Of a DNA stretch of 24,332 bases, positions 1 through 22,800 are shown one piece after another (positions within the stretch are counted from its first letter, which is position 1; each line of letters begins with the position of its first letter). The DNA is from a virus: the IMG/VR virus record IMGVR_UViG_3300043446_002818, positions 1 to 24,332 of that record, one strand, 5' to 3'. Both the position numbers and the translations under genes were made by a program. The notes beneath the pieces are model-generated. The model did not search any database. It was not told where the DNA came from and saw nothing but the letters and a program-made list of their open reading frames with translations.

Positions 1-1845
1 GGCCTGAACGTCTGTGCCAATAACAAGGCCAAGGTTGCTTCGGGCACCAGAAGCGGTTGTAGCGCCGGTACCGCCGTACAGGACGCCAACTGCGGTGCCC
101 TGCCACACGCCGGTACCAATCGTACCAACTGACGTAAGGCTCGATCCGGTAATGCCGCTACCAAGGGTGGTGCTGCTCAGTACCGAGGTGCCATTGATGT
201 AGTACGCCTTGCCAGTAGCAAGGCTAATGTGCTCGGACGAGGTCCATGCGTCAGTTGCGTCAACCCAGTTGAAGGTCTTGTCCGTGGTGCCTTTAAGGGT
301 GATACCACCGCCGTCAGCGCCGGCATCCGTTGGGCTAGTGACAGAACCAAGTTCAATGTTCTTATCGTCAACCGTAATGGTCGTCGAGTTAATGGTGGTG
401 GTCGTTCCGTTGACCGTCAAGTCACCAGAAAGAACCAGGCTTGTACCAGTCGCGGCGCCAATGTTTGGCGTGACAAGCGTCGGGCTATTGGCAAAAACAA
501 GCGCGCCAGTCCCCGTCTCATCAGTGATTGCGCTGATCAGGTTTGCAGACGAAGGAGTTGCCAAGAATGTGGCAATCCCAGTTCCAAGACCAGACACACC
601 CGTGCTGATTGGCAGCCCGGTAGCGTTGGTCAACGTAACGCTAGAAGGCGTACCAAGCGCCGGAGTAACAAGCGTTGGGCTATTGGCAAACACCAACGAC
701 CCGCTACCCGTCTCATCGGAGATAACGCTGATGAGTTCTGCAGATGACGTTGCGGCAAACGCGCTCAACTTGTTTGCAGTAAGGGCAACAGTACCACTTG
801 CGTCTGGCAGGTTAATAGTTCGATCTGCCGTTGGGTCAACAACGTCAAGAACGGTTTCAAAATTGTTGTTTGACGCACCTTCCCACTGAATCGTATGCCC
901 AGCAGGGAGGTAAAGGCTATGGATGGTTGGCGTGCCGTTATTGGCAGTAAGGGTAACGTTATCAATCGTTGGGCTGATTGAGAAAACTACTGCGCCAGCA
1001 GTGCCGGTCTCATCTGTTAGGGCGCTGGCAAGGTTTGCCGAAGAGGGCGTGGCAAGGAACGTGGCAACGCCAGTTCCAAGGCCCGAAACACCCGTGCTAA
1101 TCGGCAAACCAGTTGCGTTTGTAAGCGTGGCGCTTGAAGGCGTACCAAGGGCCGGCGTGACCAACGTTGGGCTATTTGCAAAGACCAAAGCGCCAGTTCC
1201 GGTCTCATCAGAGATAACGCCAGCAAGTTCCGACGAAGAAGTTGCCGCAAAGGCGCTCAACTTGTTGCCGGTCAGGGCGACTGTGCCGCTTGTTGCTGGA
1301 AGCGTAATAACCGTGCCGGTTCCCGCAACTGCCGAGGCAATAACCTGCGCCGTTCCAGAAGATGAGCCAGGAAGCGTGACGCTGCTAATACCCGTCAGCG
1401 CAAGGTTGGCCGATGATCGATTAAGCGCAACGGCCGTCGTACCAACGTACGTTGTGTCCGAAGGATTTGCCTTGCCGCTTGCAAGATCATAAGCAGCCTT
1501 GACTGCATTAGGCGTTGCGGCCTTAGTTGTTGAAGTGCTGGAATACGAATCTTCGAGTTGAACGGCACCAGAAGCAGTCGTGCTGGCAGAATCGATAGAA
1601 ATGACAGGAGTTGCTCCGCCGGTCGAATTGATCGGAGAGGTTCCGCTTACAGAAGTGACCGTTCCTGCGCCTGTCGAAAGGGTTACCCAAGCAGCGCCGT
1701 CGTAAACCTTGATCGCGTCGGAAACGGTGTTGTAGTAAATCTGGCCCTGAACCGGAGACGCCGGATCGGCAGACAGGTTCTGAATGGCCGCATTGAGCAA
1801 CTCATTCTTCTGAAGATCTATACTCGCAAGAAACTTGACTGCCAT
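1..1845 (-). CDS. Repeat-rich phage tail fibre protein, C-terminus cut by window edge
   Basis: The frame is open from the ATG at 1845-1843 to base 1, giving 615 codons with no stop, so the C-terminus lies outside the window. The ATG is preceded by a strong AGGAGA six bases upstream. The N-terminus (FLASIDLQKNELLNAAIQNL, then a QGQIYYNT segment) matches the start of many phage fibre proteins that I recognise by pattern. Next come phrases typical of fibres: TLPATSGTVALT, IQWEGASNN, VVDPTADRTI, LTVNGTTTTINSTT, VDDKNIELGS and LTSVGTIGTGVWQGT. Two diverged copies of a roughly 113-residue unit lie at residues 180-293 and 344-456. The composition is rich in Gly, Thr, Ser and Ala with almost no Cys, as expected for a trimeric beta-structured shaft. 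It follows two small genes in the same operon and probably builds the distal adsorption fibre. The missing end may hold a receptor-binding or chaperone domain, but this cannot be seen here. Confidence 0.85.
   Translation of the reverse strand, partial: MAVKFLASIDLQKNELLNAAIQNLSADPASPVQGQIYYNTVSDAIKVYDGAAWVTLSTGAGTVTSVSGTSPINSTGGATPVISIDSASTTASGAVQLEDSYSSTSTTKAATPNAVKAAYDLASGKANPSDTTYVGTTAVALNRSSANLALTGISSVTLPGSSSGTAQVIASAVAGTGTVITLPATSGTVALTGNKLSAFAATSSSELAGVISDETGTGALVFANSPTLVTPALGTPSSATLTNATGLPISTGVSGLGTGVATFLATPSSANLASALTDETGTAGAVVFSISPTIDNVTLTANNGTPTIHSLYLPAGHTIQWEGASNNNFETVLDVVDPTADRTINLPDASGTVALTANKLSAFAATSSAELISVISDETGSGSLVFANSPTLVTPALGTPSSVTLTNATGLPISTGVSGLGTGIATFLATPSSANLISAITDETGTGALVFANSPTLVTPNIGAATGTSLVLSGDLTVNGTTTTINSTTITVDDKNIELGSVTSPTDAGADGGGITLKGTTDKTFNWVDATDAWTSSEHISLATGKAYYINGTSVLSSTTLGSGITGSSLTSVGTIGTGVWQGTAVGVLYGGTGATTASGARSNLGLVIGTDVQA
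478..816 (-). repeat. Intragenic fibre repeat, copy 2 (113 residues)
   Basis: This copy encodes residues 344-456 of the fibre, starting INLPDASGTVALTANKLSAF. It aligns with copy 1 over its full length with one single-residue gap near the end (TDETGTGALVF here, TDETGTAGAVVF in copy 1). The two copies are separated by about 150 bp encoding an IQWEGASNN...VVDPTADR linker. Confidence 0.85.
967..1308 (-). repeat. Intragenic fibre repeat, copy 1 (114 residues)
   Basis: This copy encodes residues 180-293 of the fibre. It starts with ITLPATSGTVALTGNKLSAF and contains the sub-motifs DETGTGALVF, SPTLVTPALGTPSS and LPISTGVSGLGTG. It ends with a second DETG...SPT half-repeat. The nucleotide sequence differs from copy 2 at many third positions while the protein is well conserved, so the duplication is old and under protein-level selection. 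Confidence 0.85.
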
Positions 1846-1851
1846 TTCTTA

Positions 1852-1857
1852 TCTCCT
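1852..1857 (-). promoter_or_regulatory. Shine-Dalgarno site of the tail fibre gene
   Basis: On the minus strand the sequence reads AGGAGATAAGAAATG, which is a strong ribosome binding site six bases before the fibre start. Its first two bases are part of the TAG stop codon of the upstream gene, so translation of the two genes is closely coupled. Confidence 0.8.
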
Positions 1858-2179
1858 AATTTAAATATGCCTGCCCGCTGAATCCAGCGGAGAACGTGAT
1901 AACAAGCGTATTATCACTGGTGTAATTGACTTCGCCAATGACTACTGTACCTGCGGAGTCAACCACGGTAACGCTTGGGCGTCGCCCAAGATTGTGCGTA
2001 ATGGTCCAGGTTGCAGACGGAGTGTTCTGATTAAAGACGTAGTAGTTAAATGAACTGCCAACGTTAACCACCGCCGGAGCAGGTGATACAGCAGTATTAA
2101 ATGGTCGCACCTGTGCCGTGTTGGTTTCGCGAACAACGGAGATTGTTCCGCCCTCATCAACAATGCGCAGCGGGCTCAT
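1856..2179 (-). CDS. Small tail-fibre-associated protein with fibre-type C-terminal domain
   Basis: A 107-residue protein. The C-terminal half (residues ~57-107) contains WTITHNLGRRPSVTVVDS followed by GTVVIGEVNY and ends TFSAGFSGQAYLN. I recognise this as a short beta-rich domain often found at the C-termini of phage tail fibres and tip proteins. Here it forms almost the whole of a separate small protein, after an N-terminal strand-rich stretch (ISVVRETNTAQVRPF). The ATG overlaps the TGA stop of the upstream gene (ATGA, 2176-2179), and the TAG stop overlaps the ribosome binding site of the fibre gene downstream, so all three are translationally coupled. A role as a tail-tip or fibre-attachment component is likely but inferred. 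No signal peptide or membrane segment is visible. Confidence 0.75.
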   Translation of the reverse strand: MSPLRIVDEGGTISVVRETNTAQVRPFNTAVSPAPAVVNVGSSFNYYVFNQNTPSATWTITHNLGRRPSVTVVDSAGTVVIGEVNYTSDNTLVITFSAGFSGQAYLN

Positions 2180-2523
2180 CGGGTCACCTCTGCAGAAATC
2201 ACGAAGTCTCCGCCCATGACCTTGTCGACATATTCGCCGTTGACAACCTCAAGGTCGTACACATAGTTTCCGGCAGGAATTGCAGACGTGATCGATCCAT
2301 CCACGAGGATGGTGATTGTTCCGGCTGATCCGCCAAGCGTCAGCCCGCCATCTGGGCTGGTAAGGGAAAGATAGGCATAGCCGGAACCCGCTCGCGGTCG
2401 AACCTGCATACGAGCGGTGTAGCCAGTCAGATTTACCGGGTCTCCTGACGCATTGTTATACGTCACGACCCGGGAAAGGCTGCTGCCCTGTTCGGTGGAG
2501 ATGTCGTAATCAATGATGGCCAT
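2176..2523 (-). CDS. Small phage structural protein, BppU-N-like fold suspected
   Basis: A 115-residue protein when started at MAIIDYDIS. The pattern is a polar N-terminal strand (QGSSLSRVVTY), a central LTGYTARMQVRP motif, a GGLTLGGSAGTITILVD segment, and an IPAGNYVYDLEVV stretch leading to DFVISAEVTR. This arrangement resembles the N-terminal beta-sandwich of upper-baseplate (BppU-type) and related accessory proteins encoded beside tail fibres. The resemblance is by pattern only. Start choice: an in-frame TTG at 2541 and an ATG at 2532 also exist. I prefer the ATG at 2523 because none of the three has a Shine-Dalgarno site, and a TAGAAT box ends seven bases before this ATG, which fits a leaderless transcript. 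It is the first gene of the three-gene adsorption cassette. Confidence 0.7.
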   Translation of the reverse strand: MAIIDYDISTEQGSSLSRVVTYNNASGDPVNLTGYTARMQVRPRAGSGYAYLSLTSPDGGLTLGGSAGTITILVDGSITSAIPAGNYVYDLEVVNGEYVDKVMGGDFVISAEVTR

Positions 2524-2536
2524 GCATGGCATTCTA
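2523..2536 (-). promoter_or_regulatory. Putative leaderless promoter of the adsorption cassette
   Basis: On the minus strand TAGAAT (2536-2531) is followed by seven bases and then the ATG at 2523, which places the expected transcription start on or next to the A of the start codon. This TANNNT-to-ATG spacing is a known signature of leaderless genes, common in Actinobacteria. The -35 region is poor: TTGTGT at a 16-base spacing matches only in the TTG. No Shine-Dalgarno site precedes the gene, which supports the reading. Confidence 0.45.
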
Positions 2537-2550
2537 CACAAAAAACAAGA

Positions 2551-6304: not shown

Positions 6305-7069
6305 TTACTTAACTTTGCCAGTGCCACCGCAACGTGGGCACGGAACTTCCTTAACCGGTGCCGCCGGCTGCGGTGCCGGTGCAGCAGGTGCAACCGGTGC
6401 TGCCGCAGGCTTAGGCGCAACCCAACCCTTTGGCGCTGTGATAATGATAACGTGCTTCTCCGGCGGAGCCTTATGCACGCCGCTGACACGCTTGCTGTCG
6501 GCAATTGCCTTCAACTGCGCTTCGGTCACCTTAACGGCAAACTCCTCAGCGCCCTTTCCGGATCGCGTTGGGCAAGCCCACTGCCAGCCCTCTTCCGGGT
6601 CCCATGCGGCAGCGGTCATGTGGCCATAGCCAGCCTTGTAATGCTTTGGGTCCTTCTTGAACCCACCGCCACCTGGACCCCACCACTTCGCCCACTTTCG
6701 GTGCCACGCGCTGATTTCAACACCCTCTGGATAGCCAATCGGCTGCTGAACCCAAACGCCAATGGCGGCGCCAGCCTTAGCAGCGGCAACTACATCAGCC
6801 CAGTCTTTTGCCCAGCGAGCCTCGGCACCAAGGACGCGAGCCGTCTTAATCAAGTCGCCAAGAGATGAGCCGTTGTCGCTCACGCCCTGCTTGTCTATAT
6901 GACCAGTAGCCTTCTCCTTGGCCTTAATGCCATCACCGGCACTAAAGTCATGTCCGGGAGCGTACTTAAACACCCAGGAAACCGCTGCCGCCATTGACGA
7001 CGGGCCGCAGTCATCCAGGATGCCACCCTTCTCCTCATGATCCAACTGGCTCTTTACTCGGAACTTCAT
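6305..7069 (-). CDS. C39-like papain-fold cysteine peptidase, probable lysin
   Basis: A 254-residue protein. The N-terminal LDDCGPSSMAAAV (C21) matches the catalytic cysteine motif of C39-type and related papain-fold peptidases. GYGHMTAAAWDPEEGW supplies H150 and D157 for the remaining triad. A proline/alanine-rich linker at residues ~217-240 separates this from a short C-terminal CPRCGGTGKVK tail (C244, C247), which would be only half of a zinc ribbon. Peptidases of this type occur as the cleavage domain of actinophage lysins, and the gene is followed by a holin-like gene, so peptidoglycan cross-bridge cleavage is the best guess. The start at 7069 is chosen because GAAAGG lies nine bases upstream; an in-frame ATG at 7105 lies at the expected transcription start, without a leader. 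It has its own promoter. A structural or maturation protease cannot be excluded. Confidence 0.7.
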   Translation of the reverse strand: MKFRVKSQLDHEEKGGILDDCGPSSMAAAVSWVFKYAPGHDFSAGDGIKAKEKATGHIDKQGVSDNGSSLGDLIKTARVLGAEARWAKDWADVVAAAKAGAAIGVWVQQPIGYPEGVEISAWHRKWAKWWGPGGGGFKKDPKHYKAGYGHMTAAAWDPEEGWQWACPTRSGKGAEEFAVKVTEAQLKAIADSKRVSGVHKAPPEKHVIIITAPKGWVAPKPAAAPVAPAAPAPQPAAPVKEVPCPRCGGTGKVK

Positions 7070-7085
7070 GCTTACCAACCTTTCC

Positions 7086-7099
7086 GGGGTAAATACCCC
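7086..7099. promoter_or_regulatory. Palindrome in the leader of the lysis cassette
   Basis: GGGGTAAATACCCC has perfect six-base arms with a two-base centre. It falls just downstream of the predicted transcription start (~7103) and 17 bases before the peptidase start codon. It could be an operator for a dimeric repressor; a two-base loop is too small for a stable RNA hairpin unless the ends of the stem open. Confidence 0.45.
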
Positions 7100-7102
7100 A
7101 AT

Positions 7103-7138
7103 CATGTGGATATTACACTATGTAACATTAAACCTCAA
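7103..7138 (-). promoter_or_regulatory. Sigma-70-like promoter of the lysis cassette
   Basis: On the minus strand TTGAGG (7138-7133) and TAATAT (7115-7110) are separated by exactly 17 bases, with the transcription start predicted near 7103. The spacer overlaps another dyad, TTACA-N3-TGTAA (7113-7125). It lies in the 72-bp gap after the tail fibre fusion stop codon, giving the lysis genes transcription independent of the tail genes. Confidence 0.6.
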
Positions 7139-7141
7139 GGG

Positions 7142-10100
7142 TTATTGGTCTTCCATACGGGCAATTTTTTCTTCCAAATCTTTGATTCTTGCCCTGAGGG
7201 ATCGAACAGCAGAGAAGAGCGGAACCACAAGGCGGTCGTATTGAATTGCCTCAGGCAACCCCTCTGCGTCAATAACCACAAAGGCATTTCCTTCAATGTT
7301 GGCAAACATTTCCTCAGCGGAGAAACCATATTGACGGTTTGCTTCTTCTCCCAATTCCTCAAAACTTTTCTTGTCGTGATAGGAGATTGGTTGAACATCA
7401 AGAATTTTTTCAGAGTCTTCCATGTAGGCAATATTTGTTTTGACCCGCTCGGTTGAACTGTCAACAAACATTTGCCAAGTTCTTGGGGAAGCCCTAGTGC
7501 CATTATAAATTCTTACAGCGCTGTAAGAATTCGTGATATCAGATGTAGCATAAATATTAGAAATTTTTATGTAGTCTGCCGTAGAACTACCAAGCGTCAC
7601 GTTATTATTAAGAGACGCAGTTGCGTTAACGGTTAAAGTGTCAGCCGATGAGTCCCCGAGAGTTACGCTCCCGTTGTGAGTTGATGTACCGGATACGGTT
7701 AAAGTGCCGCTTGTTGTAAATGATCCACCGGTTATTGTGGAACTTGCCGATAGAGTAGTTACACCACTTAGTGCTCCAGATATTGCAAGGTCATTGTTCA
7801 TGCTGAATCTGCTGTTGGCAATATCCCAAGCAAGCGTTCCGCCCGTGCTACCGCTTCCAGAGTACAAAGCAACTCGTCCACCTGTTGTATTGTCTCCGCG
7901 AACAAGAATCAAAGCAGCGGTTGATCCGTTTACGCCAACCTCAAGTTGTGATCCATGAACCCACAATTTTCCGCTTGTATCAATTGTGGACTGTCCGTCA
8001 GAAGAATAAAGATTTCCCCCACCAGAAAACTTTGGAGTTGCTGATGAAAGGAATCCCAACTCTCCATCAGCAAGAGTTCCATAGTTTCCAGAGCCATAAA
8101 CTTGCGGGCTGCTGCCAAGTGCAAGGCTTCCACCAACAACTGCACCGGCTTTTGCCGTGCTGTCTTGATATACCCAAAGTCCTGCTCCGGAAATTACGGA
8201 AAGTTTCTTTACTGCCCTGATCGTTCCAGTTCCACCAGATGCGGAAGATACTGATCCGGTTGGTCGCACAGTAATAGTGCCACTTACAGCATTTGTACTC
8301 TTTACCACCAGAGGATTGTTTGCAGTTGCGTTGCTATTTAGGGTTGACGAAGCAGTTGAGTTTGCGTAAATAAATGAACCAACAGGCGGAACGCCACCAG
8401 TAAGAGTTATTGTTACGTCTGCCGATGAACTTCCAGCCGTGTTAGATACATATCCGTAAGATGTATAGTTTGTTCCATCAGAATTTTCAACAGACAAAGT
8501 TGCCGTTTGCTGCGAAGAAGAAGGGACAAGTTTAATTTTTGCCGCAGTATCATTACCGACGGTAAGATTTGGTCCACCAAGTTGAAGATTTGTAGCAGTA
8601 AGAGCGCCGTCATTTCCAACACTAAATACCGAAGATCCGCCAGCGCTTGTAGATGCACCAGCAAAAAATACGGTTCCGGTAGACGTTGAAGACTTAAGCA
8701 AACCGGAATATGTTGTACTAAGCATGTACAAAGCAGAATCAGTAAGGGTAAATCCACCAACTGTTCCAGAACTTGCTGTTAGTGCTCCGGCATTCGTGAC
8801 GCTAAATAGCGCTGATCCGCCGCTGCTTGTGTTTGCGCCAGCAAAGAATGATGTAGTGCCCGTAGACATGCCAACGTAAGAAGAACCGCTGCCTGACCAA
8901 ATTCTGTCCGTGGCAATCGTCCATCCGCCAATAGATCCAGATGAAGCGGTAATGGAACCGTTAAATGAACCGCTTGTTGCCGTTATTGCTCCAGAGATGG
9001 TGGCGCCTGTTGCGGTAAGCACGCCGGCATTAGTCACGGAGAATGCGGCGCTTGTTCCAGTGCTTGTTGAAGCGCCAGCAAAGAAGGCAAACCCGGTAGA
9101 GTCTGTATCAATAATGCCGGCATACTGCCCAGTGGAACCGCCATAGTTTGTCAAACTTGTTGATGTGAGCGACCATCCGCCGATTGTCCCACCAGTTGCG
9201 GTGATATTGTTTGTTGAGATTGTTCCAGTAAATGAGCCGCTATTTGCGGTAACCGTTCCGGTAATGTTTGCGTCAGTTGCCGTAAATGATCCAGTGCTAG
9301 TTACTCGGAATGGTGCAGTTGACGCAGTAGAACCGCCAAGCCATAGCCGATAGGCTGCGTCGCTCGATGACAATCTAGCAACATTCTCCCCAGTACCAAG
9401 GGTAATATTTCCCGTGTTAGTAATAGTGGTGTTTCCGCCAGTCAGCGATGTAGAGGAAAGTGACCATCCGCCAACAGATCCGGATGTAGCGGAGACAGCG
9501 CCGGCTGCAGTAACGCTAAACGGCGCAGATGCACCAGTCGAGTGGCCAATCCAAAGCCGGTAGGTCGAATCTGTCGGAGAAATGACAGAAACGTTATTTC
9601 CAGATCCAGCAGTGACAACTCCAGTATTGGTAACGGAGAAGTTTGTTGTTGTCAGGGCATTGCTGTCCAGTGTTCCTATGTTGATTTGACCGGCATTGAC
9701 GTAGTCAGCGTTAATAGAAACAGATGCATTGTTTGCCGTGATGATGTTGTCTGCGTTTGCTGGGTTTTTAAGAGCAAAAGCGTTGCCCTCGATTGTCATC
9801 CATGAGGCGGTAGTTCCCCCGTCTCCGCCAACTGCCATCTTCCCGCCAAGATAAACTGTTCCAGTTGCGGACGAATCCGTTGCAGTTGTTCCAGTTACTC
9901 CGCTATCGTAAGTAAAAGTCGTCGAGGTCGGAGTGCTCGCAATGGTGAAGTATCCGTTTGCCCAGGGGGCAGAGCCGTATGTGCCAACGGTATCAATAAG
10001 TACTTTTGCTCCAACAACATACTTTGTGCCGTCGTATGCTGCAGTGGTGGTAACAGTAACAATACCAGTTGTTCCGTTGATTGACACCTCATCAATTGAC

Positions 10101-13100
10101 GGGCCGATTTCTCCAATAAGAACATCGCCACCGTAGACTGTGATATTTCTTGCCGCCACTTCTCCTTGCAGGTTTACCGAAAACGGCGCCTTCGATGGAT
10201 TGGAATTTCCTGCCCAGATTCCGCTGAATGATGGGGATGCGTTAGTTCCAGCGCGAACAACATTCTCTCCAGAGCCAACTGTGAGTTCATCTGCAGTGAT
10301 TCCGGAAACATCAATGTAATCCGCATTAAACGTTGCATCTGTACCGTTAACCTGAAGGACAATATTTCCCGCATCGTCGCGAATAGTTATGCCATCTTTG
10401 TCAACTTCAAACTGTGGAAGCGTAGCCGTTCCGTCTGAGACAATAGTCATACCGGTAGAAATATTTAGCGTTCCGGCAGTGATTTTATCTGCACTCAAAG
10501 AACCAATGTTTGCATCGGTGATTGTTGCGTTGGCGATCTGAGCGCCGGAAATAGATGCGGCAGTGATATCGACTCCGCCGTTAATCTTGCTTGGGATGTT
10601 GTTTGTTGTGTTGTACGAAACACCAGATGCCCCGCCGGTCCCTGGTGTACCGCTCTCATTGCCTGTTCGGTCAAGGGATGTTACGGCGTAGTTATATCCG
10701 CTTGTGTAGTCAGCAAAGTCAGTGTCGACGTATTGTGTCGCCGATGTCTCTGCTACGGCAACATATGACCCAGTATTGTGCACTCGTCGATATAGTCTGA
10801 ATCGTGCAAAGTCCGTGTTGTTCGTATTTACTGTGGGATTTGCCGGGTCATAAAAAGCAAATGTCCAGGTAAGAGTATTGCTCCTCAGACCAGATTCGAC
10901 GGTAAGGGTCCCTGGTGCATCGCAAGGGGTTGTATCTTGCGGCAAATCAATCTCATCTGATGACCATTGCGACCTGTTATTCGTTGCGTCAATTGCCGCA
11001 ACGCGGTAGTACAACTTCTTTCCTGGCTCCGCCTGGAATGTGTGCACAACATTTGCCTTGATGCCCGTTGATGCGCTTTGAGAGTCAGATGTCTGACTTA
11101 CGTTTGCGCGCTGGACTTCGGTGAAGTTTGCGTCATATCCGTATTCAACAGAGTAATGCGAAAAGTCATCTTCTGGGCTTGGTGTCCACTGCGCCGTAAC
11201 GCTTGCCCTTGTAACTCCGTCTGGCGTTTGAATCAAGGCAGCAGGGTCGGCAGCCACAACAAGTGCCTGCGGTGGCTCTGGGGCGATGGTGTCGTTAAGT
11301 CTGGCGGTTGCCGCCTGCATATCGGCAAAGATCTGCGTTACGCCTCTCTTTGTCAGAAGTGGGTCATCTCCAACGATAACGGTGTAGTAGACGCGATCAC
11401 CAAGCAGTCGCGCCTTAACGCCCTTAACCATAAGGGGTTCGGCAGTATCATCCGCAGCCCAGATAAACGGAATAACGCTTCCGACATACGGAACACGTGT
11501 ATCAAACGTGTCAAACTCCCAGGTTCTTTCCGCTATGCCCTTTTCTTCCCAGAATGAAAGCGCTCTGGTTTGTGCTTTGTCATCATTATCAACCAGGCTA
11601 TCGTTGATTGCCGCCTCGACAATTTTCCCTCCGCTTTCCCAAATTCCGGGAGCAAAATCAAATGTCTTGTAGTAATAGACCTCAGGTTCTGGCGAAACTG
11701 CCGCGCCACCCGCTGCCGGAGATTGGATGCTCAACGTTGTTCCAACTTGCGTTGCCTTCAGCCTCATAGCAAAACGTTTTGTACCTACATAAATCTTGTA
11801 TTGCGTTGCCCCAGGAACGGCGGCCCACTGAGCGTATAGTTCCCTAATTCCGTCGGATACATCTTGATCGGTAATGGTTTCAGTGGCGTACGTGCAGATA
11901 ACATCTTCATCGTTAACAACGGCAACAACTCGAACATAATATTTTGCTGCGGCAAGAGAACCTGCTGCAACTTTCTTTAGGGTGAGGCTAACGTCTGTTT
12001 CAATAGACTCAAGTTCGCTTGGGTTTTTAGTGTTTTTATAAACGCCGTATACAAGAAGTCTATTTGCGACCTTAGACGCTGATCGCGGCGCTTTTGGCGT
12101 TTCAAAAGAAACAAGTGGCAAAGCGTAGTTAACTTCGGATGGGCTATCTGAATACCCCATTCCGCCATTGACTTGTACTAATGAAAAATCTGTCCAGGCA
12201 ACTTCGTCGCTTCCATTTGATTTCTTGCTGACAACAATTCTTGCGGATACCGCCGACTCATGCGCCTGTGCCAAAACCCAAGTCTTGCACCATCGACCGT
12301 CGTCCGTGGAGTCAAAAGCAATATTTCTATTGAGTTTATGGGAATTGCCGACTTTTATCGTTCCAGCGGCGTTGCTATAAAACACCAGTTCTGCATCCCA
12401 GTGCGCAGCAAAGTTTGACTTTGCCCAACCCCGCACTCGTGCAAAGTAGTAGTTGTTAGCGGTAACTGGGATTGGGTTTGTTTTGCTTTCAACTGTTGTT
12501 GCCCCAGCAGAGGCAACTAGCGCCCTTCCGTATCCAAACGGCCCTCGGTTTTGCTCGATTGAGTGCCCAGTTGCAACAAAGTAACTGCTTGATGCTGGAG
12601 AAGATTCAAATCTTGGGTTATCAACCAACTCTCGCGCTTGCTTGTTCGTGTAGTGGAGGTATTTGTTCTGATCAACCCAGAACACTGCGCCAGTTTTTTC
12701 GGTAATAATATTCAATGCCTGCTTAATGGTTTTTCCGCCAAATGGGCTTGTGAGGACGATGCCGGTCTCTAGCGTTGGACTAAACCGATACGACTTATCC
12801 GGGTCTGGAGTTCCATCATTCAGTTTCTTTGCGGTCTCAACGTATTCAGTTTGATTGTCAATTCCTGGATCTAGGTCAGGGTCAATGGCGTTAAAGATGC
12901 CCCTGTAGTTTGCGTTTTCTGAATCTATAGATCCTCGAATTACATCGATATCAATAGAGCCTTTTTGCACTTTTGACTCTGGGCTAAGGTCGCCGGAGAC
13001 TGCCGGAGCAGTGCTCATGCTATAAGTAACAGTTGGGCTAGTAACCGTTGTCTTGTAATACATGTCCTTTGTGCCAATACCGGACTTTGCAAAGACTTTG

Positions 13101-13864
13101 TAATACGAAGCGCCAGCAACCGTAGTCCAATCAAGTTTGATGGTTCTCAGTGGCGGATCAGATATTCCGGGCGGATCAATATCTGTTGCTGTAAGTTGTT
13201 GAGTAACGTGCGTAAAAATCTCAACGATTTCATCGCTAGAGTTATATGCAACAACTCTGAACGTATATGGCCCAGCCGTAAGTGTAAGCCCGCCGGCAAC
13301 AACTTCTGTGGTGAGGCCGCTTATGGTCGCTCGTTCTTGGAGTTCCTCGGATACCGTCGGAGCGTTGTAATCCCGGACAATCAACTCATCCAAAAGCGCG
13401 GTGTAGTCAGAGCACTCAACGCGCTGCACAATAAAGGAATCTCCATTCCTTTCCGTATCGACACTGGAAACGACGCCACCCCAAAGTACCGTGTCTGGGT
13501 TGCCAACCACAATGTGATCGTTGGTAGATATAATTTTTACTTCTGTTCTATTGGCAACGTCAATGAAAAACGATGGGTCACTTATCGCGTCAACTATTCC
13601 AAGGGATACTGGAGTTGATCCGCCAACAGCATTCCCGCTGTCCAGCCATGACTGATAATCATCGTACCTTGTTGAGGAAAGAGGCAACATTGTGAAGATG
13701 TCGAATCGGAGCGTGGTGTTTTGATCTGTTGCCTGCTGCTCCCATTGGAGCGATGCGTAGTCAACCCGCTTACTTATATCTATCCAGATTTCCTCTTGAA
13801 TAGACGTAGAGGTCTGCGGGTAACCTGGGCGATATTGCATCAATACGCTGATTCGGTTAGCCAT
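7142..13864 (-). CDS. Tail hub / receptor-binding fibre fusion with S74 chaperone
   Basis: A 2,240-residue virion protein. Residues ~25-165 and ~300-410 look like a gp27/Tal-type tail hub (for example DTVLWGGVVSSVD and ALNIITEKTGAVFWVDQN). They are interrupted by a fibronectin III-like insert at ~188-290. Residues ~415-567 resemble a family 4/9 carbohydrate-binding module (NPRFESSPASS...IPVTANNYYFARVRGWAKS). Further fibronectin III-like domains lie at ~625-725, 862-975 and 978-1075. Residues ~1100-1200 form a fibre-shaft lead-in (ISGAQIANATITDANIGSLS), followed by a repeat shaft at 1197-1770. The C-terminus (2136-2240) is a Peptidase_S74 intramolecular chaperone with the Ser-Lys dyad S2137/K2142 in SSTERVKTNI and a final coiled coil. 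That family folds trimeric fibres and then cleaves itself off, here before S2137. The gene follows the tape measure by 14 bp, the usual hub position. Confidence 0.85.
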   Translation of the reverse strand: MANRISVLMQYRPGYPQTSTSIQEEIWIDISKRVDYASLQWEQQATDQNTTLRFDIFTMLPLSSTRYDDYQSWLDSGNAVGGSTPVSLGIVDAISDPSFFIDVANRTEVKIISTNDHIVVGNPDTVLWGGVVSSVDTERNGDSFIVQRVECSDYTALLDELIVRDYNAPTVSEELQERATISGLTTEVVAGGLTLTAGPYTFRVVAYNSSDEIVEIFTHVTQQLTATDIDPPGISDPPLRTIKLDWTTVAGASYYKVFAKSGIGTKDMYYKTTVTSPTVTYSMSTAPAVSGDLSPESKVQKGSIDIDVIRGSIDSENANYRGIFNAIDPDLDPGIDNQTEYVETAKKLNDGTPDPDKSYRFSPTLETGIVLTSPFGGKTIKQALNIITEKTGAVFWVDQNKYLHYTNKQARELVDNPRFESSPASSSYFVATGHSIEQNRGPFGYGRALVASAGATTVESKTNPIPVTANNYYFARVRGWAKSNFAAHWDAELVFYSNAAGTIKVGNSHKLNRNIAFDSTDDGRWCKTWVLAQAHESAVSARIVVSKKSNGSDEVAWTDFSLVQVNGGMGYSDSPSEVNYALPLVSFETPKAPRSASKVANRLLVYGVYKNTKNPSELESIETDVSLTLKKVAAGSLAAAKYYVRVVAVVNDEDVICTYATETITDQDVSDGIRELYAQWAAVPGATQYKIYVGTKRFAMRLKATQVGTTLSIQSPAAGGAAVSPEPEVYYYKTFDFAPGIWESGGKIVEAAINDSLVDNDDKAQTRALSFWEEKGIAERTWEFDTFDTRVPYVGSVIPFIWAADDTAEPLMVKGVKARLLGDRVYYTVIVGDDPLLTKRGVTQIFADMQAATARLNDTIAPEPPQALVVAADPAALIQTPDGVTRASVTAQWTPSPEDDFSHYSVEYGYDANFTEVQRANVSQTSDSQSASTGIKANVVHTFQAEPGKKLYYRVAAIDATNNRSQWSSDEIDLPQDTTPCDAPGTLTVESGLRSNTLTWTFAFYDPANPTVNTNNTDFARFRLYRRVHNTGSYVAVAETSATQYVDTDFADYTSGYNYAVTSLDRTGNESGTPGTGGASGVSYNTTNNIPSKINGGVDITAASISGAQIANATITDANIGSLSADKITAGTLNISTGMTIVSDGTATLPQFEVDKDGITIRDDAGNIVLQVNGTDATFNADYIDVSGITADELTVGSGENVVRAGTNASPSFSGIWAGNSNPSKAPFSVNLQGEVAARNITVYGGDVLIGEIGPSIDEVSINGTTGIVTVTTTAAYDGTKYVVGAKVLIDTVGTYGSAPWANGYFTIASTPTSTTFTYDSGVTGTTATDSSATGTVYLGGKMAVGGDGGTTASWMTIEGNAFALKNPANADNIITANNASVSINADYVNAGQINIGTLDSNALTTTNFSVTNTGVVTAGSGNNVSVISPTDSTYRLWIGHSTGASAPFSVTAAGAVSATSGSVGGWSLSSTSLTGGNTTITNTGNITLGTGENVARLSSSDAAYRLWLGGSTASTAPFRVTSTGSFTATDANITGTVTANSGSFTGTISTNNITATGGTIGGWSLTSTSLTNYGGSTGQYAGIIDTDSTGFAFFAGASTSTGTSAAFSVTNAGVLTATGATISGAITATSGSFNGSITASSGSIGGWTIATDRIWSGSGSSYVGMSTGTTSFFAGANTSSGGSALFSVTNAGALTASSGTVGGFTLTDSALYMLSTTYSGLLKSSTSTGTVFFAGASTSAGGSSVFSVGNDGALTATNLQLGGPNLTVGNDTAAKIKLVPSSSQQTATLSVENSDGTNYTSYGYVSNTAGSSSADVTITLTGGVPPVGSFIYANSTASSTLNSNATANNPLVVKSTNAVSGTITVRPTGSVSSASGGTGTIRAVKKLSVISGAGLWVYQDSTAKAGAVVGGSLALGSSPQVYGSGNYGTLADGELGFLSSATPKFSGGGNLYSSDGQSTIDTSGKLWVHGSQLEVGVNGSTAALILVRGDNTTGGRVALYSGSGSTGGTLAWDIANSRFSMNNDLAISGALSGVTTLSASSTITGGSFTTSGTLTVSGTSTHNGSVTLGDSSADTLTVNATASLNNNVTLGSSTADYIKISNIYATSDITNSYSAVRIYNGTRASPRTWQMFVDSSTERVKTNIAYMEDSEKILDVQPISYHDKKSFEELGEEANRQYGFSAEEMFANIEGNAFVVIDAEGLPEAIQYDRLVVPLFSAVRSLRARIKDLEEKIARMEDQ
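8555..10276 (-). repeat. Tandem beta-repeat shaft in the hub/fibre fusion
   Basis: This segment encodes residues 1197-1770. Two module types recur. The first reads roughly NV-x-S-x-D-x-YRLWxG-ST-x-APFxVT and is present at residues ~1424-1455 and ~1494-1525, with a diverged copy at 1201-1235. The second reads FFAGASTS-x-FSVTNAG-x-LTAT and is present at ~1594, 1673 and 1733. Both are separated by IGGWSL-type strands (1464, 1561, 1645, and GGFTL at 1703). The copies are conserved as protein but diverged in DNA. Confidence 0.75.
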
Positions 13865-13878
13865 GTCCGTTTACCATC

Positions 13879-16800
13879 CTAGTTCACTGTGCTTCCTGCC
13901 TGCTGAGCAATAAGTCTAGCAAGTTCTGCGGCCAATTGTTGCGCGTTCATACCCTCAGCGTTATTCACGGTGATGTTATAGGTATTGTTCGGAGGGGCAA
14001 TTGGCATGGTGCCCGCAGTCCCGTTGCCAATTCCGCTGGCAAAGTTTGGATCAATCGAAAGACCAGCCCGCGCCGCTGCTGCAGCATTTAGGGCTTGAGC
14101 ATACATGTTTACCTGCTCCGTTGCAATAGAGAATGCAGAAGCAGTTGTTCCCATCGCCTGCCCAAGGGCGTTGGATTCCTCAATGGTCTGCTGATGGAAT
14201 GCTCCGAGCGGACCGCCCAACTCGGCAGCGTATGCCTTGATGCTGTTCATGCTGCTCTCAAACGAGTCTCGCGTGGCGATTACCGCTGCTGAGACCGCGT
14301 CAATTTGCGTCTTGCCAAACATGATATTGCTGATCGGGTTGCCAGCGCCAGAGAGATTATTTGGATCAAAGTTCTGACCGAACAGCAACTTATCGAGGCT
14401 GGTCATCTTGCTTGCTGCACCAGCACTCATCACGTTGTCAATCTGTGTCATGACATCCTTAAGGTTTGTCACAACACCGCTTAGCGCCCCAATGCGTGGG
14501 TCACTTGAATCAGCAAACTTTGCATACTGCTCAACATCGACAGACAACAACGCTTGACCGTAAGTATCCCTGAGCACGTCTCGCATCTTTTGGATTGCCT
14601 CTTCGCGCGCTGCATTGTCTTCGAATGTTTTCCCGAGAGCATTGAAGTAGTCGGTGAACTGCTTGTCGGTAACGTCAGCCTCGGCAAGGTTGGCAATATT
14701 GATGTCGACACCAGTTGCTTGCTCGAAATCGTTGAGACCCTGCTCAAGCGTGCGCTGGGCAAGTATTGCTGTCTTCTGCGCTGTCGTAAATGTATTCTTT
14801 GCAGAAACAAGCGTCATCAAATATGTGTAGAGAGCCTCTTGCTCGTCGTTTAATTTTGCAATGCCAGTCGCCCCTCCGCCAAGACTTGAAATAAGCCCAG
14901 TGATATATGAAAGAATATTGCCGGCACCGGCGTACTCTTTGCCATTAGCGTCTTGATATCTAAGGTTTGACATAATCGCTTCGTTCATGAACGTTGCCTG
15001 GAGGCCGCTTTCTTCTGTTGTTCCACGGAACACCTTCATGTCTGCTGTCGACATCGCCTTGCCGCCATACGTCAGACCCTTGATTCCACCGGAGAAGCCC
15101 CTGCTGGTTGCGGACGTTGGTGTGAACTCAGCCTTGTCAGAGTTATAACGAATACCGGTGGTAATTGCTCCGAACTCTTTAACAAGCGCATCAGACTCCG
15201 CTGTTTTTGCTTCTTCCCTCATGGTTTCAAGTTGCGCAAGAATATCGGAATTGTCCTTTGTTAGTCCAGCGGCAAGCGCCTCAGCAATGGCCTCCCTGTT
15301 CTGCGACTCAAATGCATCGAGCGCCTGCTGCTCCTCTGTCGTCATGGTGATGTCTTGGCTGCCAGTGACGTCGCCGCGAAGCGCAGAGCCAATAGCGTTG
15401 AGCGCGTTTTCTTTGCGCGCTGCGGCCAAAAGTGCGTTGTACTTACTATAAATATTCTTTTCAGTCGTTGTGCGATTTGAAGCGCTCTTCTTTTTAATGT
15501 CGGCGTATTTCTTTCCCTCTGCGCTTGCGGCATACTTTTTAAAATCATCGTTGGCGGTTGTTTGATTTTGATATGAGCCGGAAATCATGGTTCCGAGCAT
15601 GCTTGTATCACCAGCAAGGCTGGTGCCAAACATGGTCATCTTGAGCGAGTCGTTCATCTTACCGGCCATCTTTTCGTCGCCGTTAAGAACAGACTGCGCA
15701 AAATCGAATCGGCTCTGCAAGCGCTTCAGGGCAGCGTCATAGATTGCCTGCTGGGCGTCTGCGGATGCGCCGAACTCCTTCTCGTATCGCTCCTTTTCGT
15801 CGGAGATGACCTTAAGTTCCGCCTCTTTTTGCTTGTCGATATAGAACTGCTCTAGCGCCTGCTTCGCATCATAGAACGACTTTGCGGCCTCGAGTGGATC
15901 AGCACTTTGCGATCGCATCTGGAGGCCAGCAATCTGTAGTTGCGCCTGCAGGTTTTCCTCGGTTTGCTGATCAGAACGCTGTTGATATCGCTCGTTGATG
16001 CGCTTCTCCTGCTCATCAAGTTGCTTAATGTACTCGTCATGCGTTCTCTGCTGCGCTTTTCGAAGTCTGTCGTACGCCTGCTGTGCAATTGAAGCCATCT
16101 TGCCAAGAAGGTCAATATTCTTTTGCAACGCTGCGGCATCCTTCTTTCCTCCGTCACCGCCAAGGATTGATCCAGGGTCTTTTGCAATCAACTTCTTGAT
16201 CTCATCAAGTTCTTTCTTTGTCAACTTGAACGGGTTTGCCTTTTCTGCGGCATCAAAGAATGCTGCAGCCTTCGCAGTAAGGTCCTTAATCTTTGTTTGG
16301 CTATCAGCAATGCTCCTACCCTGGGCATCAATTGCGCCTTCGGCTGCCCTTACCGCCTGTTGCGCAGACTCAATTTGATCTTTGTCTCCGCTGGCATTTG
16401 CTGCAATCAATTTTCCTTGCATCTCAAGGAGAACTTTTTTCTTTCTTTCTAGTTCAACTTGCTTTTGATCAAGTATTGTTTTTTCTGCAACGATTTCAGT
16501 GATAACGCCTTCTGCCTGCAACTCCGCAACTTTGGCGGTAATAACCGCTTCGCTTTCACTTGCAACTGATTTAATTGCATTTTGCTTTGCAAGCAATATT
16601 TCTTGAATTGCCTTGTTGTTTGCAAGTTCTTTGTTAGAAATCTGAATGCCTTCTCCCTCAAATACCGCGAGTGCCTCACCAACATCAAGGGTTCTTTCTT
16701 TTGTGGTGTATGCCTTATCCCGCAAGACAGTTTCCTGCTTAAGCAGGTCCAACTGCTCCTTTGTTGCCTTTAGCCCGGCGGCCGTTGCCGCAGTAAGCGC

Positions 16801-19800
16801 AGCCTGATTTGCTTGTCGGAAATTCTTGAATGCCTGCTCCGCCGCAACTCCCTGTGCCTGCTCCTCTGGGCTTGCGCCCTCGGTTGCCATTCGATATTTC
16901 ATCTTTACGGTCAGTGGGACGTATCGTGCCCCAGCAACCTTTTCTTTTTGCGCCTGTAGTTTCTCGTACTCAGCCCTCTCTGCTGTGGTGAGCAAATCTG
17001 TGTCTTGCTGCAGGACGCTATAGGACGTATCTTTGCCGCCGTATTGATCTCGCTCAACGCCTGCTGGAGCGTTTCTAAATGTCTTATATCCACCGGCAAT
17101 TTTTTGATCAGCGTATTCCTGAAGGAACGCAAGCCTCTTCTCTCCACCCATTTTTTCAAATGCGGCAACCTGCTTGGCGTACTCGGCTCGCTGCGCTTCG
17201 AGTTCGTCAAATTTGTTGTATCCAAATTCTGCTCCGTACTCTTCCATCATTTGTGTACGAGTCATTGTGACGTCAATCTTTGGCGTCAATGCCTTTGCGC
17301 GCTCGGCCCTGCGTACGCCAACGGAAAGCGTTTCTTTCATCAGAGCAATAACATCAAGATTGCTCATATCTCTCGTGATTTTTGTTATATCAAAACCAAA
17401 TGCATCAAGCGCATCGGCCACCTTGTCACCGAATCCTGCCGCGCGGGTCATTGATTGAATAACCGGATCAAGCATCAAATCCTTGACCTCGAGGAAGTTA
17501 TCCCTTTGCTTGCCAATGTCGTCGACTGTTACGGCCGTTCCGTCCGCCTTCTTTGCCCCAGCATCAACATCTGCCTGTGTATATTCAGATCGCGGCTGAG
17601 AGTATGCCAGCGCATCAAACATCATAGTCGGACTAAATGCTCGTGAATCTGTAATTGTCCCGAACATCCCAAGTGGACTGCTCTCTGCTTCAACTTGCAA
17701 TTTCTTGTATGCCTTCAGCAACTCCTCTTCCTGCTTAGTGAGTGCTTCGTCCCTGGCAATTTTCCCGTCAATCGACTTAAGCAGATCTTCATTTGCCATC
17801 CTAAACTTTTCTGCATCTCTCTTTGCGAAAAGGTTGTCAACCCCAAAGAGTTGCTTGAGCATTTCTGGGTCCATAGCAGTTTTCATGAAATCCGCCTGAC
17901 GTTGGTCAAAACTGCTAGATGCGTTTCTCTTCAATCTTTCATCATCGAGTTGCTGGAGCAATTGTGGCTTCATTACCTCCGATATTTGATTGCTTCCAAG
18001 GATTTCGTTATATCTCCTGTTGTATTCGTCTTCGGTCATCGGGTTGAAATCTTTATCTATGGTGTATGATGAACGCAAATCCGCCATCGGATCTGCAGTC
18101 ATCATGTTCTGAATAAAGTCTGTTTTGCCAAACTTATCTTCTACAATTGCCTTAGATTGCGCGTCGGTGAACCCAAGGAATTTCGCCTCGTCAAAGAGTG
18201 CTTTCTTCTTTCGGGCAATCGACTCGCTTTCGGACATCATCTTGTCGACAAAATTTCCAACAAGTTCACCAAGCGCGCCGCCAATCATTCCGCCGAGGGC
18301 AGCACCAAGTCCAGGGATTGGGATCAATGCCTGTCCAAGTGCGCTTCCTGCGGCTGTTCCGATTCCTGCCGCCATTGCCTGGAACGGTCCAGCCTTCTGG
18401 CGGAAGATGCTGGTCATCTCTTTCGGTAGTGCGTCCATAAGTGGCCCAATAATGGGCGCTGAAAGGATTGGTGCTACCTGGCCCGCAAGTCTTGATGCGC
18501 CACTTGCAAGTCCAAGCGCCAGGCTTGCAGGGCCAATATATTTGCCAAGACTGCTGATTTTGCTTCCGCCCTTGAGTCGCTTGCGCTTTTGCAACTCCTC
18601 TGCGGTAACCTCTTCGTTGCCCAGCAGGCCAGTCTCTTGGTCAACGTAGTAATACTTACCCTGCCTGCTATCAATCTCCCGAAGGCCAGTCTTACCACCT
18701 CCGCGCTCGATGGTTTGGAACATCTTTGGCGCTTTTCCAGCAATGCTGTTGTATATACTGGTAAGCATCCCGGCGAGTTTCTTGGAGATTCCAACAGTCA
18801 TACCCTTAAGGGCTGCTTTTCCACGCGCGTCCCCGAGAGCGCCAGTGGTAATGTCTTCAATCTCTTGCTTGGTCAGGAAATTTTCGCCCTTTGCCTGCTT
18901 TTCAAGAACCTTGGCCGTAACAATATTCCTAACCTTGTCGGGCAAGGCCTTGATTGCCTCTGCTGATCCCTTTGGAATATTGATCGGCCTGCCCTTGGCG
19001 AACTGTCCAACCAAATCAGTTGCGTCTCCGCCGTTGGCCTCGATGAGGCCGCCGATGATTGCCGTTGATTCTTGAACCTGCGTGCTTCCTTTAATTTTTG
19101 CAATAGATGCTTCGTTTTCTGCTCTCTTTGCAGCAAGTTGTGCCGTAAGCGCATCGTGCTCTTCCGTTCCGGGCGTTGCCTTTTTTAGTTCGTTTTCCAA
19201 ATATGTAATTTCGTCTGCAAGTTTCTTGATATCATTTCCTGCTTGTTCAAGATTTGCGTACGCCGTGTTGATAACAAAACTAATTTGCTTCTGCATGTTT
19301 ATGGCGCTCATCAAGTTGTCCATGGAGTAGGCGCCAGCGTTCTTGTTGATGTCTGCCTCTCCAGTTACAGAAACGCCCGCATCAAGACCGGCAAACCGGA
19401 ACATGCCAAGTTTTGACGCCTCTTGTCGGAGTCGAGCGGCCTCTTCGAGATCCTTCTTCTTAGATTCCTCCTCGGGGGTGAGAGTCTTTCCTTGTGTTGC
19501 AACATTGAAGGCGGCCAGTCGACTTTCTGCTCCGGCAAGGTAGCCGTAGTTGTCTTCAATGGACTTATTGCTAACGACTGGCTCGGTATGCGGAAGAACA
19601 TTGTCTGGGTGTGAAAGGTGGAACCCAGCACCAAAATCTGGGCGAACACCCATTGCGTTTTGCGCCAAGTCCATTGTCTGCTGCTTGTTGCGTTCCATAT
19701 CCAGAAGACCCGGAATAAAGCCTCTTCCCTGAAGAGCAATCTGAGCACCCCGCCCCTTGCTTTCCGTCATGCCGTAGGAATTTACTCGCTCACCCTCGCC

Positions 19801-22800
19801 CCAAAGTAGCGCTGCCTTTGATTTGTCGGTGGTTACTCGGCCCCTTTCATCAAGCATCTCGCCGCGTTCATTTCTCTTGAAATCCTCAGCGGCACGCTTT
19901 GCCGCGCCAAGTTCTTCATACGCCGCAGCCGTCTGCTTGACCTTGGAAATTTGCGTATCAATCGAGTCGTTGACCTTCGACCACGCTCCGCCAAGGCTAT
20001 TCATGACCTTTCCAACAATAGATCCGGCCATGTCGTATGCCATCATTGCGGTCTTCAGCGCAAGGAAAAGGCCAATGAGCACGCCAAGTGGCTTAGCAAA
20101 TGGCGTAATGATCTTCAACAGGACCGACATGCTTGCAAGGAAAATCGTAAGCAGCGGCATCAATACGTCAATTGCCGCAGAAAGTCCAAGAACAAATCCA
20201 GACAGTCCGCCAGAGGACAAATCCTTTGCAATCGTTCCGAAAGCATCTCCGATTACCTTGAAGAACTGCTCAATTGAAGGAATGAATGTCTTTACAAAAC
20301 TTCCAACAAACGCTGTGAGGATGGAGTTTTCCTTGATCGCCGCAGCAATGCCGCTGATTGCGGCAATAAGAAGCGTAATGCTGGCAATCATTGGATTTGC
20401 TGTTACTGCTTTGCTAAATAGGCTGAATGCAAGGGTTGCAACAACAAGGCCCTTGCCAACGTCGTTAGTTAGAATGTCGCCAATGAGTTTCAGCCCAGGA
20501 CCAAGATTTGCAATGACTCCTGTAATAACATTGCCAAATGCTGTTCCCTTATCAAGCGCAGATCCAAGGCCGCTGACAAAAACATCAACAAAGATCTGAC
20601 CAGCGGCTTGGAGCGCTGGACCGAACGAGGAGAGGGAGGTGATGAAGTCTTGCATACGCCTGCGAACCTCATCAACAAACTTGGTGATCTCCTTGGACTT
20701 AAGCATGAACTGACCAATTTCAACAATGGTGTCCCTAACCGAGTTGAACAGCGGCTGGAATGCTGTTGCCATGAAGTTCTGTGACAAGTCGGCAATGGTC
20801 GAAAGGGCACCGGTCATTGTCCTTGAAAGGCGGTCCGCAGATCCTTGATATTGTCGATCCATTCCGTCGGTGATTGCTCGAGCAGCGGTTGATCCAAGCA
20901 AGAATCCGCGCTTTGCAAGTGCACGGATCAAACCCTCTGCACGCTTTGGATCTTGCAATGTTTCGATCATCTGATCGATGCTGCCGAATGACTTCTTGAA
21001 TGATCCGGTATTGATGAACGACTCAAGTCGCTTGAATTCCGCAATAGTTTCTTCTGGCAAATCCTTAAGCAGGCCCATTGACCTCTTCTTGATTGCGGAG
21101 AGGTCCATCAACAACTTTTCTGACAACATGCGGTATCCTGCGATACCAGCATTTGCCAACTGCATCATGTCGTTTTGATAGACGCGGCCTGCAGAGTTCA
21201 TTTGGCCAAGCGCGTATGCAATTCGGTCAATCTTTTCGTCGTCCCCACCAAGCGCCGCCACGGCATTGGAGATCGAGTTGATCATTCCAGGAATTTCTGC
21301 CGCCTCGAATCCGAACGCCTTCATCTTGAGTGACGCTTCTACAAGCGGCTGGAATCGGAATGGCGTGACGTTTGCAATGTCCCTGATTTGCGAAACCATG
21401 CCCTCTGCAGCGCCCTTGGTGAAATCAATGGCATCAGCAAACTTAACAGCCTGCTCTCGCATGAAGCCAATCTGCACTCCGGCTTCGTTCAACTTCGGAA
21501 CAAGTTCATTCCCAATAGAAGCATTTGCCTGGAGCGTGTTGGCAAAGAGTGTGTTAAATCCTACTTGCGTGTTTTCAAGAACTTGATTGAACCCGAAGAT
21601 GCCTGACTGTAGGTGCGAAACAACACCGCCAATTTCTCGACCGAGTTGTTGGAGCACCAAGAATGTTGCTGCTCGGCCAACCTGAGTTCTTACTGCCCGC
21701 AGTACGCCAACATTAGTGTTGGTTAGCGTTGCAAGGGCAGCAGATGCCTGCTGGGCCTTCTTATTTGATTCGTCGAGAGACTTGGAGAATCCCTTATTCG
21801 CGTCTCCAACGTGAAGAATTGCAGGTGCAAGTTCGTTAAATCGATTCTGCAACGCTGCAAGATCTTTGAGTCCGCGCGGAATATTGTCAGTATCTGGAAT
21901 CTTCGCGCGAATCTTTCGCCAATCGTTATTTGGGTCATCCATTGGCCCAGACGGACCGCCTGTAGCAGTCCCGCCACCTCCGCCGCCCTGACCGCCCTGG
22001 CCTCCTTCACCAAGAAGATTTTCAGTTGTCTTAGATGAGGCATCTCCAAGTTGCGCGACCTCACCAGATGTTCCGCGTGCTGCATTTTCTAGCGCTGATA
22101 GTTGCGCTGCGATGGTCGGAATTAACTGCGCCAGATACCGCACGTCATTGATTGAAAGTCCGGTAAGTTCTGCTGCATTCTTATCGTAAGAAGATACTTT
22201 GCCCTTTCTGGCAGCCATTGGATATTCTGGCGAAGCATCACCAAGTATTCCCGCCTTAACTTCTCCGGCGTTTGTAATCCCAGTTGCAGAAACTTGACGC
22301 TGAACCTGAAGGAGGTAGTCCAGTTTTCTTCCAATTGAAGAGCCGGCCAATGCCTTTTCCAATTCTTCCGCTGAAAGATTTTCAGCACCAGAAACTCCCT
22401 TTGCCGTAAGGCTGGCTCGCGCCTCTTCGATCGCCTTCCCAAGCATTTCCGAAAGCCGAGCGGTAAGCGGAAGAATTTGCTCCTGAGCCCTTGCTGTTGC
22501 CTCAGGATTCAGTTCCTTTGCGGCGCGCGCCGCCGCTTCCTGCTCCTGGCCAGAAGTGGCCATGCTTGGTCCCTTTGGAAGCGTTGACCCTGGAGCAATC
22601 TCTTCTTGAAGGTTACGAATTTGAGTGCTGACGGCATCAATTTCATCCCCAAAAGATTGGACAGATGATCGAACATCAAGAAGGGTGCTTGTTGCTTGCG
22701 ATACCTCTGCCTCAGTTGGTCCTGGCAAATCCGGAGACTGACCTGCTTCAACATCTTGAGCAATTTCAAAATCGCTTGCCGGCATAAACTCAGAAGAAAG

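Follow-up and report, generated by a model that had tools for sequence, protein, structure and literature searches.

In most siphophages, the dit gene sits between tmp and tal, and the review that describes this order also covers Tal proteins that can reach or exceed 2,000 residues, as well as "evolved Tals", in which CBMs are inserted in a gp27-like Tal N-terminus (PMC7291167). A Tal/RBP of 1,098-2,156 aa with a Tal N-terminus was reported in 33 of 57 Bacillus cereus-group siphophages, with a CBM in 14 phages and a C-terminal intramolecular chaperone in most (PMC9128512). RBP-Gp29 of Deep-Purple (2,156 aa), described in the same report, joins a Tal-like N-terminus, a CBM region and a C-terminal intramolecular chaperone in one chain, and Tal/RBPs of this type are conserved at the N-terminus and variable in the centre and at the C-terminus. 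Dit and the CBM region of Gp29 were found to bind host strains with differing breadth, and the authors suggest Dit, the broader binder, for the first reversible attachment (PMC9128512).

Related layouts have been described in other phages. The Tal of Oenococcus phage X27 (1,914 aa) contains CBM16-like modules, whose closest homologue is 2zew, together with beta fibre parts and a chaperone with a Ser-Lys dyad (PMC12403621). Lambda gpJ carries hub domains, two FNIII domains, a shaft and a distal receptor-binding domain in one chain (PMC11101478). In the central fibre of Douge, gp20, residues 165-321 form a CBM-fold domain beside the baseplate-anchored arm that binds mycobacterial glycans (PMC13033339).

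We analysed a 24,332-base virus record (IMGVR_UViG_3300043446_002818, positions 1-24,332; hereafter the window), the end of which interrupts an ORF. Its 2,240-residue fibre protein is an elaborate example of the design published in these other phages, namely Tal/RBP fusions with CBM and chaperone. It is like RBP-Gp29 in its one-chain layout and pattern of conservation, like the X27 Tal in its CBM16-like module, beta fibre parts and dyad-bearing chaperone, like gpJ in joining putative hub, fibronectin, shaft and distal parts, and like Douge gp20 in the position of its CBM-fold domain near the baseplate. In contrast with the window, Deep-Purple has dit between tmp and the Gp29 gene, and its CBM region is central (about residues 800-1650), whereas the module of the window protein lies within the N-terminal 870 aa and is followed by the FN3 domains (PMC9128512). 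In the X27 Tal, by contrast, a helical rod bears three CBMs and there are two chaperone-like domains; that phage also has a Dit (121 aa) (PMC12403621). GpJ has 1,132 aa, shares the hub with gpL and has neither a CBM nor an S74 domain among its listed domains (PMC11101478); in lambda, H and J are separated by genes M, L, K and I. Douge gp20 (878 aa) is separate from the hub protein and bears a second CBM-fold domain at its tip, with no S74 among the domains listed for it (PMC13033339).

An earlier note on this DNA, made from its letters alone, held that these functions are usually split among several genes. In Streptomyces phage Salutena, separate genes carry them (the record notes list a Dit-like and a Tal-like gene besides the S74 gene), and from its identical gene order the same holds for Sentinel, but since fused Tal/RBPs have been published (PMC9128512, PMC12403621), the statement holds only in part. 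Less usual are the lack of any gene between tape measure and hub and the very long tape measures.

We propose, with a probability of roughly 80%, that the phage is a long-tailed siphophage and that the protein serves as its "evolved Tal" or central tail-fibre protein, i.e. as a trimeric tail end with a tube-closing N-terminus, a CBM-type module, an FN3/shaft section, a tip and a self-released S74 domain. Three copies would form the tail end, with residues 1-860 closing the tube below the tape measure and the CBM16/CBM4-type module and beta inserts placed on the outside. The FN3 domains and the beta-rich repetitive shaft would project the distal tip. The S74 domain is predicted to trimerise and fold the shaft end and tip and then to cut itself off before S2137, so that the mature fibre would end in the variable tip.

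A 2,240-codon reading frame behind the tape measure gene

The fibre ORF occupies positions 7142-13864 on the minus strand and runs through 2,240 codons without a break, which confirmed the single chain of 2,240 residues read in the earlier note. We compared the window with six related phage contigs (7 records in total); six of the seven hold the complete protein (2,207-2,635 aa), and the G005 protein ends at its contig end after 1,354 codons. A chance ORF was ruled out, since the protein is conserved in all six other contigs and its first 870 aa are 57-81% identical in the five further complete relatives. A fusion created by sequencing error was also ruled out, with the N-terminal fusion present in 7/7 records and the whole chain in 6.

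The fibre ORF starts 14 nt past the stop of the tape measure ORF (13879-24330, minus strand), which is cut by the record end with 3,483 codons present. Over 8-11% of its length, the latter matched, at ~24% identity, Arthrobacter and Bacillus phage proteins annotated as tape measures; its alignment with a 5,545-aa homologue covers residues 1939-5544 of that protein. The tape measure homologue of G002 lies at 9308-25945, and the long upstream ORFs of G001, G003-G006 and the window (6/6) are homologous to it. Across all seven records, the putative hub gene lies 8-14 nt behind the tape measure gene, which leaves no room for an intervening gene such as dit.

Directly after the hub gene, a 266-aa protein (6305-7105, minus strand) contains a CGPSS and a C-terminal CPRCGGTG motif. 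It gave no convincing family match in Pfam/PHROG-type domain searches; by eye, it is possibly a cysteine peptidase, perhaps with a role in lysis. A by-eye look-alike also follows the hub gene in G002.

The putative hub and its predicted jelly-roll module

The N-terminal 860 aa (minus strand, like the rest of the protein) are its best-conserved part among the relatives. Residues 1-180 (13325-13864), next to the tape measure gene, form the putative Tal-like N-terminal part of the hub (60-76% identity to the six relatives), which would continue in residues 301-412 (12629-12964; 70-87%) and 568-625 (11990-12163; 62-81%) and end in residues 729-860 (11285-11680; 67-91%), among the best-conserved stretches of all. 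Two beta-type inserts interrupt these parts. The Ig/FN3-like insert a (residues 181-300, 12965-13324; 45-85% identity) matched phrog_31 central tail fiber J at E 0.023, and its counterpart in the relative L028 matched phrog_7440 major tail protein (E 5.8e-4). The second insert (residues 626-728, 11681-11989; 50-83% identity) is FN3-like by eye and gave no convincing family match in Pfam or PHROG. Both show strands in a low-confidence AF2 model.

None of the four putative hub segments gave an identifying match in Pfam, PHROG, NCBIfam or PDB sequence searches, the first 880 aa gave no tblastn match to named phages up to E 1, and no relative turned up when genome contigs were scanned using the hub alignment. 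The AlphaFold2 model of residues 1-880 was discarded (pLDDT 32, from an alignment of three sequences at least 80% identical). Comparison of the 7-row hub alignment and of single segments with Streptomyces Tal/Dit and with lambda J, L, M and K using hhalign gave probabilities of ≤2.4%. However, the control was likewise empty, in that known hubs missed each other (Tal vs lambda J and L, Dit vs lambda M), so this null result speaks neither for nor against a hub. Gene position and conservation make it reasonable to read residues 1-860 as the tail hub; the hub claim of the earlier note thus gained synteny directly behind the tape measure gene but no match by sequence, profile or fold.

Between putative hub parts, residues 413-567 (12164-12628) are predicted to fold as a CBM16/CBM4-type jelly roll. 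The AlphaFold2 model of residues 405-575 alone, made with two homologues, was of middling confidence (pLDDT 59, pTM 0.62). When this model was compared with the PDB using Foldseek, ranks 1-10 were all CBM16 chains (top match 2zew; best E 7.5e-5), ranks 11-14 were CBM4-2 chains, and other folds appeared from rank 15 (E 0.006); ranks 1-14 have TM-scores of 0.42-0.52 and share 12-23% identity with the module. VIA-align returned CBM4-2 (Z 7.9), CBM16 (Z 7.6) and the Douge central fibre (Z 7.5-7.7; 8zdp_v Z 7.5), along with an accessory secretion protein (Z 8.2) and a GOLD domain (Z 7.8), scores that (at a maximum of 8.2) fall in the range reached by common arrangements. Since non-CBM folds score as high as CBMs, these comparisons support the fold class of the module and not its function. 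The best 13 predicted viral structures for the module include an S74 protein, a tip attachment protein J and two CenC-type CBM proteins. With no CBM or other Pfam family matching by sequence up to E 1, the carbohydrate-binding-like module proposed earlier was supported in its fold but not in its sequence family. The module and both inserts are present in 7/7 records, the module at 46-72% identity between the window and its relatives, and all three have diverged more than the putative hub parts (46%, 45% and 50% against 60-72% for the window vs G006).

These data bear on two other readings of the region. If the protein were a separate long tail fibre, with an N-terminus that attaches to a hub encoded elsewhere, its place behind the tape measure gene would be coincidental. 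Consistent with this, residues 1-860 gave no hub match in any of the searches made. The absence of dit from its place between tmp and tal also counts against our main reading, as do, for its CBM part, the modest TM-scores. However, the 8-14 nt spacing recurs in 7/7 records, and the N-terminal 860 aa are the best conserved, as expected for a hub. Moreover, a scan of 10 proteins from the G002 structural block, which covers that block apart from two small ORFs, gave no match to a hub or Dit family or PHROG. We accordingly regard a separate fibre as distinctly unlikely. The jelly-roll module, in turn, could be a structural decoration or spacer that binds no sugar, given that it is matched by fold at 12-23% identity, that jelly rolls of other function score equally and that CBM families go unmatched by sequence. 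Yet Foldseek ranks 1-14 are exclusively CBM16 or CBM4-2, the similarly placed Douge domain binds glycans (PMC13033339), and no record has lost the module; we consider a spacer a real possibility that nonetheless falls short of likely.

If the module of this putative evolved Tal does bind sugars, it may make a first, reversible contact close to the hub. This idea, raised in the earlier note, is plausible because the CBM-fold domain of Douge that binds mycobacterial glycans lies beside the baseplate-anchored arm (PMC13033339), and it is the same idea that was suggested for Deep-Purple, a studied system (PMC9128512).

Fibronectin domain, shaft, tip and chaperone

Residues 861-985 (10910-11284) contain an FN3 domain with its core at ~878-968, which by its sequence match to phrog_31 central tail fiber J (E 2.5e-5) resembles the central tail fibre J type; PF00041 scored 21.1 bits at 883-968 (E 3.6e-4), below its curated cut-off of 25. 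Residues 986-1095 (10580-10909) look like a second FN3 domain by eye and matched the Hoc-like phrog_10993 (E 0.0022), such that at least one of the fibronectin domains noted earlier was substantiated. The fibre shaft, also noted earlier, was found as well. It starts in residues 1096-1460 (9485-10579), with matches to phrog_16534 tail fiber (E 8e-5) and phrog_19445 tail tip protein Tal (E 1.9e-4), and becomes repetitive in residues 1461-1760 (8585-9484), where the units carry the signature [IV]GG[WF]; the window protein has 4 of them, P0003 has 9 and P0004 has 4. The shaft also weakly matched 8jvm, the tip attachment protein J of lambda (E 0.016). A pre-tip region follows (residues 1761-1985, 7910-8584), whose counterpart is swapped between lineages in the relatives. 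Residues 1986-2136 (7457-7909) are hypervariable, with 12-30% identity and many gaps in all 10 pairs of five proteins, and are likely the receptor-binding end of the mature fibre.

Behind the shaft and tip, the chain ends in a Peptidase_S74 intramolecular chaperone (residues 2137-2240 of 2240; 7145-7456), identified by Pfam, PHROG, a profile search of the PDB and its motif. The dyad and chaperone length given in the earlier note were exact: S2137 is followed by K2142 (S+5), and 104 residues run from S2137 to the end. Pfam Peptidase_S74 scored 20.6 bits at 2137-2186 in the whole protein, below the cut-off of 22, but 26.5 bits on the excised 116 aa, which upholds a self-cleaving-type domain at the C-terminus, with cleavage itself being predicted. 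When the excised S74 domains of the window, L002 and L003 were scanned, two of the three passed the cut-off and L002 (19.3) failed. PHROG 1330 matched over residues 1988-2240 (E 4.7e-13). A profile built from five S74 domains (the window, two relatives, Sentinel and Salutena), in which the Ser and Lys of the dyad are invariant, matched the long tail fibre distal subunit 6f45 (E 4.5e-6), the L-shaped tail fibre 8hqz (E 0.0014), MyRF 7dc3 (E 0.032), the neck appendage protein 3gud (E 0.13) and the phage tail fibre 7y5s (0.23) in the PDB, and also met two unrelated thioesterase chains (E 0.85 and 0.98).

In the S74 family, release of the chaperone through self-cleavage has been described (cited in PMC12403621). 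Alternatively, the domain could fold the tip yet remain attached, and the X27 authors are themselves undecided on cleavage in virions (PMC12403621). Against this, S-x4-K-x2-I is found in all six proteins that are complete at the C-terminus, so that Ser and Lys keep the dyad spacing despite pairwise domain identities down to 28-58%. A chaperone that is never released therefore strikes us as very improbable, and self-release of the S74 domain is retained in our reading.

Matches beyond the comparison set were concentrated in the S74 end. Sentinel and Salutena match the window protein there only, as does Roseobacter phage CRP-1 with the relative P0004, and the S74 proteins of all three phages are encoded by separate, shorter genes. 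Outside S74, the window protein had no sequence match to named phages at E 1e-5; P0004 showed weak further matches, e.g. to Streptomyces phage DekoNeimoidia at 858-1204 (E 7e-5). No relative was recovered from viral contigs when the C-terminal 139 aa served as the query.

Within the comparison set, the two ends of the protein differ in their relationships. The window and G001 are 81% identical over the first 870 aa but 47% in S74 and 31% in the preceding 150 aa, and for G001 vs G002 the corresponding values are 96%, 30% and 28% (the last over 65 aligned residues). The window S74 is nearer that of G006 (58%) than that of G001 (47%), whereas over the first 870 aa the order is reversed (57% vs 81%). 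Between G002 and G004, 611 nt of the pre-tip are 85% identical in DNA; the longest other match of this pair spans about 2,000 nt of the hub region at 65% identity, and pieces of 36-187 nt from the shaft and the end are at 66-86%. At the protein level, their pre-tip regions are 90% identical, compared to 59% for residues 1-180. From these pairwise identities, rather than from a tree, the tip and chaperone seem to have a history of their own and to be exchanged between lineages, as expected if the tip sets receptor choice, for which it may be the main determinant. The seven records resemble a natural experiment, in which tips and chaperones differ while the putative tail cap and the CBM-type module stay the same, and they fit the idea that a receptor tip and its folding chaperone travel together.

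The S74 protein is not the sole likely adhesin, since a second fibre block lies at window positions 1-2541 (minus strand). The block includes a fibre protein that bears a Phage_fiber_2 repeat and is truncated where the record ends. It also encodes a 121-aa protein; L-shaped tail fiber protein assembly is among the PHROG matches of the latter (E 3.6e-8), and its top match is of unknown function.

Tape measure length and the place of Dit

Complete tape measure ORFs are present in five of the seven records (G002, G003, G004, G005 and G006) and encode 5,545, 5,542, 5,282, 5,594 and 5,112 aa, counted from the first start codon, which is always ATG; those of the window and G001 run off the record and were left out of this range. 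All five are longer than the tape measure of Thermus phage P74-26 (5,006 aa), the published longest-tailed phage, a comparison that covers P74-26 only. In Gordonia phage Hotorobo, a 9,984 bp tape measure gene goes with a tail of about 540 nm (PMC4982279). At the same ratio, 5,112-5,594 aa would correspond to a tail of about 0.83-0.91 μm.

A bolder picture, which we consider unlikely as a whole, is that these phages are a clade of uncultured siphophages without a separate Dit. One trimeric chain on the tail tube would close the tube and bear both a sugar-binding collar and the fibre, the tail would be set by the 5.1-5.6 kaa tape measure and possibly be among the longest of any virus, and only the tip and its own chaperone would be traded between lineages. 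Finding a host would test how far the length of the tail follows that of the tape measure and whether a tip can form without a separate Dit.

In the G002 structural block, the portal protein L013 (15650-17854, 734 aa) carries a C-terminal polynucleotide-kinase-like domain (phrog_415, E 5.8e-18, residues 490-620), and ORFs of 734-739 aa are present in G003, G004 and G006.
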